From Sulfitobacter undariae (GTDB lineage Bacteria; Pseudomonadota; Alphaproteobacteria; Rhodobacterales; Rhodobacteraceae), in the NCBI RefSeq assembly GCF_014196805.1, contig NZ_JACIEI010000001.1:186001-250000 (forward strand): 64,000 nucleotides of DNA, read 5' to 3'. The notes beneath the pieces were generated by a model that ran no database searches, was not told the origin of the DNA, and was given only the letters and a program-made list of their open reading frames with translations. The position numbers were made by a program, and so were the translations under genes. Below are positions 59,420-61,842 of the stretch, one piece after another (position 1 is the first letter of the stretch; each line of letters starts with the position of its first letter).

Positions 59420-59938
59420 ATGAAACGCCCAATTCTTTATCACCCCGACCCGCGCCTGAAAAAAGCCTGTACTGCCGTAGATGATCTGACAGATGATCTG
59501 CGCCAATTGGCTGATGATATGCTGGCGACTATGTATGAGGCCCCCGGTGTAGGGCTTGCCGCCCCACAGATCGGGGTGCTGAGCCGCCTTGTTGTGCTGG
59601 ACTGCGTGAAAGAGGATGGCGAAAAGCCGCGCCCCTTGATCATGTTCAACCCGCAAATTGTGGCCGCGTCAGAAGAATTGAACACCTATGAAGAGGGTTG
59701 CCTGAGCATCCCTGAGCAATTCGCTGATGTGACGCGCCCCGCCGAGGTTGAAGTCACGTGGATTGACCGCGATGGGAACGAACAGCGCGAGGGCATGAAG
59801 GGGCTGTGGGCCACTTGTGTTCAGCATGAAATCGACCACCTAGAAGGCAAGCTGTTCATTGATTATCTTAAACCGCTCAAGCGTCAGATGATTACCCGCA
59901 AGATGGTAAAGTTTAAACGCGAACTGGCCCGCGGATGA
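59420..59938 (+). CDS. def: Peptide deformylase, canonical copy
   Basis: Removes the formyl group from new proteins. It has 172 residues. All three metal-site motifs are intact: GVGLAAPQIG, EEGCLSIPEQ and QHEIDHLEG, with the catalytic Glu in HEIDH. First of four genes; overlaps the next by ATGA. Confidence 0.96.
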   Translation: MKRPILYHPDPRLKKACTAVDDLTDDLRQLADDMLATMYEAPGVGLAAPQIGVLSRLVVLDCVKEDGEKPRPLIMFNPQIVAASEELNTYEEGCLSIPEQFADVTRPAEVEVTWIDRDGNEQREGMKGLWATCVQHEIDHLEGKLFIDYLKPLKRQMITRKMVKFKRELARG

Positions 59939-60429
59939 GCGTGCTGGAAATCCTCCAATGGCCCGATCCGCGCCTGATGGAGATTTGCCCGCATATAGAA
60001 GCGATAACGCCCGAGGTTGAGACCTTGGCGGCGGATATGCTGGAGACAATGTACGCGGCACCGGGCCGTGGGCTGGCAGGGCCGCAAGTGGGCGCGATGG
60101 CGCGGATTTTTGTGATAGATGTGGGGTGGAAAGAAGGGAAATCCGACCCTTTGGTTTTCATCAATCCAATGCTGCAAGAAGTCAGCGAAGACCGCGCGAC
60201 CAACAGCGAAGGCTGCCTGAGCATTCCAGGAGTGAGTGCCGATATCTCGCGGCCTGCGCAGGTGCAGTTGGTTTGGATGGGCTTGAATGGTGGACGGTAC
60301 GTGCAAAGTTTTACAGGTTTCGCCGCCGCTTGTGTCCAGCATGAATTGGATCATCTGGACGGTGTCGTGACCTTTGATCACCTCGACGCCGAGACACGGA
60401 CAAAACTGGAAGCGGAGTATAACGCATGA
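59935..60429 (+). CDS. Peptide deformylase, second copy
   Basis: Deformylase of 164 residues with intact metal motifs EGCLSIPG (92-99) and HELDH (136-140). The first motif is changed to GRGLAGPQVG, with Arg45 in place of Val and Gly49 in place of Ala. It should still bind metal; altered specificity is possible. Overlaps both neighbouring copies by 4 nt. Confidence 0.92.
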   Translation: MSVLEILQWPDPRLMEICPHIEAITPEVETLAADMLETMYAAPGRGLAGPQVGAMARIFVIDVGWKEGKSDPLVFINPMLQEVSEDRATNSEGCLSIPGVSADISRPAQVQLVWMGLNGGRYVQSFTGFAAACVQHELDHLDGVVTFDHLDAETRTKLEAEYNA

Positions 60430-60923
60430 CTGTACGCAAAATTTTGACATGGCCAGACAAACGCTTGCGCACAGCGACGCAGGATATTGCCGAGGTGACA
60501 GACGAGGTGCGCGCGATATGGCGTGATATGGTTGATACAATGGACGCTATGCCCGGTGTTGGCCTTGGCGCCCCGCAAATTGGTGTGTTGCAGCGGTTAG
60601 CGGTGGTGGATACCTCCGAGGCGCGGAACAAGCGGATTTTGCTGGCAAACCCTGAGGTGATTGACGCCTCGGCGATCATGAATGTGCATGAAGAAGCCTC
60701 GCCTTGCCTATCGGGTGTATCGGCCAAAATCAGTCGCCCGCGCGGTGTACGTGTGCGCTATATGGATGAAACTGGCGCTGTGGTTGAGAAAGATTTTGTC
60801 GGGTTGGATGCCACAAGTGTGCAGCATCAGATCGACCATTTAGCGGGTAAAATGTACTTTGACCGTTTGAGCAAAGTAAAACGCGACATGCTGCTGCGCC
60901 GTGCACGCAAGATGAACGGATAA
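60426..60923 (+). CDS. Peptide deformylase-like protein, catalytic Glu replaced
   Basis: Third paralogue, 165 residues. Motif 1 ([10 protein letters not shown]) is nearly normal. Motif 2 reads EEASPCLSG instead of EEGCLSIP, keeping Cys94. Motif 3 reads HQIDH (134-138), with the catalytic Glu replaced by Gln135 (codon CAG at 60828). Metal ligands remain but deformylation is not expected. It is 4 nt from fmt, so it is kept in the operon. It may be a non-catalytic partner, or have a new activity. Confidence 0.9.
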
Positions 60924-60927
60924 GCCG

Positions 60928-61842
60928 ATGCGGATTGTGTTTATGGGCACACCGGAGTTTTCGGTGACGGTACTGGATGCGCTGGTTGAGGCAGGTCACG
61001 AGATTGCGGCCGTTTATTCGCAGCCCCCGCGTCCTGCCGGGCGCGGAAAAAAGGACCGCCCGACGCCGGTTCACGCGCGTGCCGAAGCCTTGGGTCTGGA
61101 GGTGCGTACGCCAGTTTCGCTCAAGACCCCCGAGGCGCTAGCAGAGTTTTCCGCGCTGACGGCGGATGTGGCCGTTGTTGTGGCTTATGGCCTGATTCTG
61201 CCCCAAGCCATTCTGGATGCGCCCGCACAGGGCTGTTTGAATATTCACGCCAGCCTGCTGCCGCGTTGGCGGGGGGCCGCCCCCATTCACCGTGCTATTA
61301 TGGCGGGGGATGCGCAAACGGGTGTGTGCATCATGCAGATGGAGGCAGGGCTGGATACGGGCCCTGTTTTGTTGTGTGAAAATCTGGATATCGGCGCTGA
61401 AGAAACAACGGCGCAATTGCATGACCGCCTGAGCATTCTGGGCGCGGCGGCTATCGTTGAGGCGTTGGCGAGTTTGGACGATTTGACGCCACAGGTTCAG
61501 CCCGAAGAGGGCGTGACTTATGCCGCCAAGATCGACAAAGCCGAGGCGCGGATTGACTGGCACCTACCTGCTGGGCAAGTAGATCGCATGATCCGTGGAT
61601 TGTCGCCATTTCCGGGGGCGTGGTTTGAACACGGCGGTGTTCGCGTCAAAGTACTGGGGTCGCGGTTGGTAACAGGTGCGGGCGCGGCTGGCATTGTGCT
61701 GGACGAGGCGCTGCATGTGGCCTGCGGCGAGGGGGCGGTTGCACTGACCCGCTTGCAAAAGGCGGGCAAAGGGGCGCAGGATGTTGAGGTGTTTCAACGC
61801 GGCATGCAGATCGCCGTTGGCGCCAACTTGAACGAAGGATAG
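60928..61842 (+). CDS. fmt: Methionyl-tRNA formyltransferase
   Basis: Formylates initiator Met-tRNA using 10-formyl-tetrahydrofolate; 304 residues. It opens [18 protein letters not shown]. The catalytic block is [21 protein letters not shown], with Asn, His and the later [10 protein letters not shown]-terminal tRNA-binding domain follows. Last enzyme of the def-def-def-like-fmt cluster. Confidence 0.97.

Follow-up and report, generated by a model that had tools for sequence, protein, structure and literature searches.

A conserved third deformylase copy in the def-fmt operon of Rhodobacteraceae, probably a non-working enzyme retained for another job

The accessible parts of the literature describe peptide deformylase (PDF) as an enzyme whose metal is held by a cysteine and two histidines (PMC5591237) and whose catalytic residue is a glutamate, named as Glu-133 in the title of a cited paper. 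At the ribosome exit, PDF and methionine aminopeptidase (MAP) are described, in the texts available to us, as competitors. Besides the canonical enzymes, type 3 PDFs carry alterations in the conserved motifs; as far as the available text of two sources goes, they are weak or inactive, although some are active (PMC5591237, PMC12690207). PDF genes may also be clustered. In the accessible sections of a 2025 study, clustered PDFs are reported for 98.1% of the Rhodobacterales reference species, 62.5% of those genomes having three, and the rationale for this arrangement is called elusive (PMC12690207).

The window analyzed here, a stretch of 64,000 nucleotides from Sulfitobacter undariae, holds an operon that is the same kind of cluster as those described in the available part of that study (PMC12690207). 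An earlier note on this DNA had pointed to three overlapping def paralogues ahead of fmt, and both the coordinates of the open reading frames and the junctions agree, since c1/c2 and c2/c3 each meet in an ATGA overlap. By Pfam and NCBIfam profiles, c1, c2 and c3 belong to the peptide deformylase family, and the open reading frame that follows them is fmt. In the whole genome, these three copies account for all PDF matches. The features considered below are the following.

59420 to 59938, forward strand: def copy 1 (c1), with the canonical PDF motifs EEGCLSIP and QHEIDHL and a basic C-terminal tail.
59935 to 60429, forward strand: def copy 2 (c2), which retains EGCLS and HELDH, has an Arg in motif I (GRGLAGPQ) and lacks the basic tail.
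60426 to 60923, forward strand: def copy 3 (c3), putative pseudo-deformylase of 165 amino acids.
60693 to 60713, forward strand: motif II of c3, Glu90-Ala91-Ser92-Pro93-Cys94-Leu95-Ser96, in which the ligand Cys is replaced by Ser92 and the Leu by Pro93.
60825 to 60839, forward strand: motif III of c3, His134-Gln135-Ile136-Asp137-His138, in which the catalytic Glu is replaced by Gln135 (CAG, 60828 to 60830).
60873 to 60917, forward strand: C-terminal helix of c3, residues 150-164, a helix in the AF2 model and basic in charge.
60928 to 61842, forward strand: fmt, methionyl-tRNA formyltransferase, by family match.

In c3, codon 135 is the CAG at 60828 and motif III reads HQIDH, while the motif II block reads EASPCLS, both as previously noted. 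The metal-binding residues had also been thought to be retained. This holds for the two histidines only, the ligand Cys being paired with Ser92 in an ungapped alignment. Indeed, the EGCLSIP-like stretch of PDFs aligns with EASPCLS without gaps, both with MAFFT and with HMMER against two solved PDFs. In these alignments Cys faces Ser92, Leu faces Pro93, and Cys94 of c3 falls opposite the motif II Ser. An insertion of two residues in motif II of c3 is ruled out by the same alignments and because 44 residues separate the motif II Glu from the first His of HEXXH in c1 and c3 alike. Compared with what is expected of an active PDF, c3 keeps the motif I Gln, and has neither the Cys of the motif II EGCLS nor the Glu of HEXXH. 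In PDFs the formyl oxygen is stabilized by the Gln and by the backbone NH of this Leu, a group that Pro lacks. With the ligand Cys, the Leu NH donor and the catalytic Glu all replaced, three separate parts of the PDF chemistry are gone as judged from the alignment, and the losses exceed those listed in the earlier note.

The replacements were followed in 163 c3 rows, trimmed sequences that all differ from one another and score above 150 bits for c3; this cut excludes two fragmentary copies (L197 and L199), and the window's own copy is possibly present more than once among the 163. All 162 aligned rows that reach motif III have Gln135, His134 and His138; one further row stops short of this motif. 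Ser92 occupies its position in 162 of the 163 rows (Pro in the remaining one), and Pro93, the motif I Gln51, Glu90 and Arg104 are found in all 163. Residue 94 is Asn in 129 rows and Cys in 34. Ser131 is nearly invariant in c3, where most PDF copies of this dataset have Cys, and the c3-specific Trp32 is present in 161 rows. A Glu at position 135 in relatives, named beforehand as evidence against the loss, was looked for in the aligned third copies and none was seen. Chance or a sequencing error as the origin of HQIDH is ruled out by the same 162 rows. Residue 40 (60543 to 60545) is Asp or Glu in 151 of the 163 c3 rows and Tyr in all lettered c1 and c2 rows.

One alternative is that c3 is still an enzyme, with altered chemistry. 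The two His and Ser92 (or Asn/Cys94) could hold another metal, or the protein could take another substrate, or weakly deformylate under stress, for instance in the presence of an oxidant. The near invariance of His134, His138, Gln51, Ser92 and Ser131, which suggests a pocket rebuilt and not decayed, would suit such an activity, and type 3 PDFs have been proposed to work under oxidative stress (PMC12690207, accessible part). The same source, as far as it is available, considers altered-motif PDFs as perhaps active under special conditions and cites T. brucei as having type 3 PDFs that are altered yet active (PMC12690207), which counts against a dead c3. However, no row read has kept the catalytic Glu, the metal ligand or the residue that follows this ligand. 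Moreover, none of the c3 residues that are more than 90% conserved and differ from c1 is acidic; position 40, the acidic residue mentioned above, is not invariant. We therefore regard a retained or altered activity of c3 as unlikely.

The earlier note had also held that a copy depleted of catalytic residues is maintained by selection. The fixed losses and the substitution rates are in line with this proposal. The median dN/dS over 92 shared pairs is 0.19 for c3, 0.12 for c1 and 0.14 for c2 (NG86, pairs with dS below 1.2, 44 loci), and c3 is under purifying selection. The 35 c3 rows included in the tree all belong to one clade (SH-aLRT 100).

The copy is also widespread. Among 295 genomes of the Rhodobacteraceae, the family of the window, sampled at about one genome per genus, at least 249 have a c3-level match. 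The cut for such a match (E below 1e-52) was set by us from a two-peaked list in which the gap is narrow, c1 copies reaching 8e-51; the 249 is a lower bound, with at most 12 candidates per genome scored and 8 genomes giving no PDF match. In a more complete sample of the order, which overlaps the family survey, 100 of 101 genomes have a c3-level match. The Q pattern occurs somewhere in the genome in 242 of the 249 genomes with a c3-level match, a count made per genome, the pattern match not being placed at c3 in each. It also occurs in 10 of the 46 genomes without such a match; thus, chance matches are not rare. Among the seven c3 genomes that lack the pattern, five read QHQIDHI or LHQIDHL, another reads HQANH, and the last is cut off ahead of motif III.

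Of the 46 genomes among the 295 that fall below the cut, two (G156 and G215) contain c3 fragments. Nine of the 46, chosen as lacking c3, have one canonical PDF each in a search with the Pfam model, which argues that, on this genomic record, c3 is dispensable over evolution; a tenth genome (G298) turned out to have c3. Two irregular loci should be described here. On the reverse strand of G282 (L195, about 1474 to 1992), a seemingly decaying c3 reads HQANH and has lost the motif I Gly; Gln135 is still there, and several residues that are otherwise invariant are altered. In G215 (L199), c1 is intact and c2 and c3 are represented by weak fragments only, as a result of decay or of poor assembly.

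The decayed appearance of the first of these loci, the fragments of the second and the 46 of 295 genomes below the cut are what could be expected if c3 were a decaying duplicate without function. Such an explanation is disfavored, and we hold it to be very improbable, in view of a dN/dS of about 0.19 and of a single fixed set of substitutions, in one clade, across about 250 genera.

Outside the family, the DNA pattern detected no HQ-type PDF among 380 genomes of the class and none among 354 genomes of the phylum, about 100 of which are of the same class; the two samples overlap, and the pattern is blind to any copy that differs from it at position 133, 136 or 139. The 34 pattern loci found outside the family (18 in the class sample and 16 in the phylum sample) were fetched, and none of them encodes a PDF.

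The fold of PDF is preserved. c3 matches Pfam PF01327 with 138.9 bits (cut-off 22.8), and its AF2 model (pLDDT 96.1) is a full type 1B-like PDF that superimposes on E. coli PDF (4az4) with a Z of 27.2 and an rmsd of 1.5 over 163 residues. The window copy also passes the cut-offs of TIGR00079 (127.4 for 103.95) and NF001159 (127.6 for 125), and therefore gets named peptide deformylase despite its lost motifs.

The helix formed by residues 150-164 of c3 is the counterpart of the C-terminal helix by which, according to the accessible text, E. coli PDF binds L22 (PMC8712518). The mean net charge of the tail is +6.5 for c3 (minimum +5), +7.9 for c1 and -1.4 for c2 (103, 103 and 81 distinct rows, respectively). 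This basic tail fits the earlier suggestion of a role at the ribosome exit, where c3 had been thought of as a possible formyl-peptide sensor. For ribosome binding, a basic helix is necessary, not sufficient.

Variability was also compared between the pocket and the rest of the protein, using columns that we took to line the pocket from the structure of E. coli PDF. In c3, these columns are less variable than the remaining ones (0.40 vs 0.95 bits, p 3e-4). Because of this difference, the c3 pocket is, from its pattern of conservation, rebuilt and not decayed. The other copies show the same trend (0.20 vs 0.86 in c1, 0.69 vs 1.43 in c2), so that the conservation is weak evidence for ligand binding by c3; it may be structural.

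The second copy has features of its own. In c2 relatives, the motif I Arg (GRGLAGPQ) is present in 89 of 89 aligned rows, and 88 of 89 retain the Cys of motif II and the Glu of HEXXH; the c2 copy of one locus (L252) reads HKLDH. To judge from these motifs and from its tail, c2 resembles a PDF that is no longer tied to the ribosome and whose pocket mouth is altered.

At least one def lies upstream of c3 in 80 of 80 loci, and in 56 of them the c3 match overlaps the upstream def by its first 3 or 6 bases; fmt is found downstream in 76 of the 80, as read from named records. The linkage to upstream def genes, together with c3-specific residues such as Trp32, would agree with c3 being a subunit or a chaperone of c1 or c2, in which case hetero-oligomers would stabilize or regulate the active copies without any ribosome contact of c3 itself. 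The basic tail of c3 points instead to the ribosome, and PDFs are described as monomeric in the accessible part of one source (PMC3344269). We consider an assembly of this kind rather improbable.

From the features encoded at these loci, c3 is probably a deformylase copy that no longer works and is retained in a different role, possibly at the ribosome. As a best explanation, it can be tentatively proposed that c3 is a conserved pseudo-deformylase docked at the exit, with a pocket that binds a ligand without turnover, and that it tunes the access of exit factors. Three elements of the PDF chemistry being replaced in a fixed way, c3 would not deformylate. Its C-terminal helix would dock it at the ribosomal exit, just as in ordinary PDF, and its rebuilt pocket would bind a ligand, possibly a formyl-Met N-terminus, without turning it over. 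Once docked, c3 would govern both the frequency and the duration of the access that c1, methionine aminopeptidase and other exit factors have to the nascent chain. The job would then be split within the operon, c1 having activity and a tail, c2 probably activity without a tail, and c3 a tail without activity.

A broader and less probable version extends this division to the whole clade. Deformylase would be split three ways into an active tailed copy, an active tail-less copy and a dead tailed copy, the last of which would occupy the exit dock and bind formyl-Met N-termini, and competition would control deformylation. If this were true, the fMet degron and Met excision would be controlled too, through competition at the ribosome.

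Among known proteins, type 1B PDFs, represented by E. coli Def and by c1, share with c3 the fold, both metal His, the motif I Gln, the basic C-terminal helix and the link to fmt. c3 differs from them in having Ser in place of the ligand Cys, Pro in place of the next Leu, and Gln in place of the catalytic Glu.

A second comparison is provided by family NF009484, which we take to be the UniProt 'peptide deformylase-like' proteins. Found in other genomes of the class, these are, like c3, accessory PDF copies with Ser at the ligand Cys. However, all 18 copies read with this motif set (L235, L236, L237 and L296-L310) keep the Glu and have Gln at the second metal His (EGS[VI]SM, QHE[IV]DQ), whereas c3 has EASP[NC]L and HQIDH. 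The three copies that were aligned have His in place of the motif I Gln, and a 19th copy just over the NF009484 cut-off (L311) has canonical motifs. No match to fmt was found in the flanks of three copies (L289-L291), and the window c3 scores 140.3 bits against NF009484, under the cut-off of 190. AU tests reject neither sisterhood, that of c3 with NF009484 (p 0.755) or that of c3 with c1 (p 0.722); this is the outcome with or without the motif columns, in analyses where quick trees missed better trees.

The type 3 PDFs are also close in kind. By the definition given in the accessible part of PMC5591237, which rests on substitutions in the conserved motifs, c3 would count among them. Like type 3 PDFs, it has a PDF fold with motif substitutions and is an accessory copy beside an active one (PMC5591237, PMC12690207, as far as available). 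The group is a loose one, however; changes in motifs I and II are described, and the Ser-Pro/Gln set and the operon link are not mentioned in the parts of these sources at hand (PMC5591237, PMC12690207).

For the Rhodobacterales cluster, the available part of PMC12690207 does not mention the catalytic losses of the third copy. Likewise, no report of a catalytically dead Rhodobacterales PDF was found in the part of the literature searched, which mostly excludes subscription papers. PDFs with altered motifs and the def cluster are already known, and what c3 adds is a probable pseudo-PDF that is fixed, tied to an operon and recognizable by a residue signature of its own. Such a protein would bring a pseudoenzyme into the co-translational processing of N-termini. 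Moreover, if one member is a fixed pseudoenzyme whose tail is of the docking type, and another has no such tail, this bears on the purpose of the cluster, which the accessible text of PMC12690207 leaves open.
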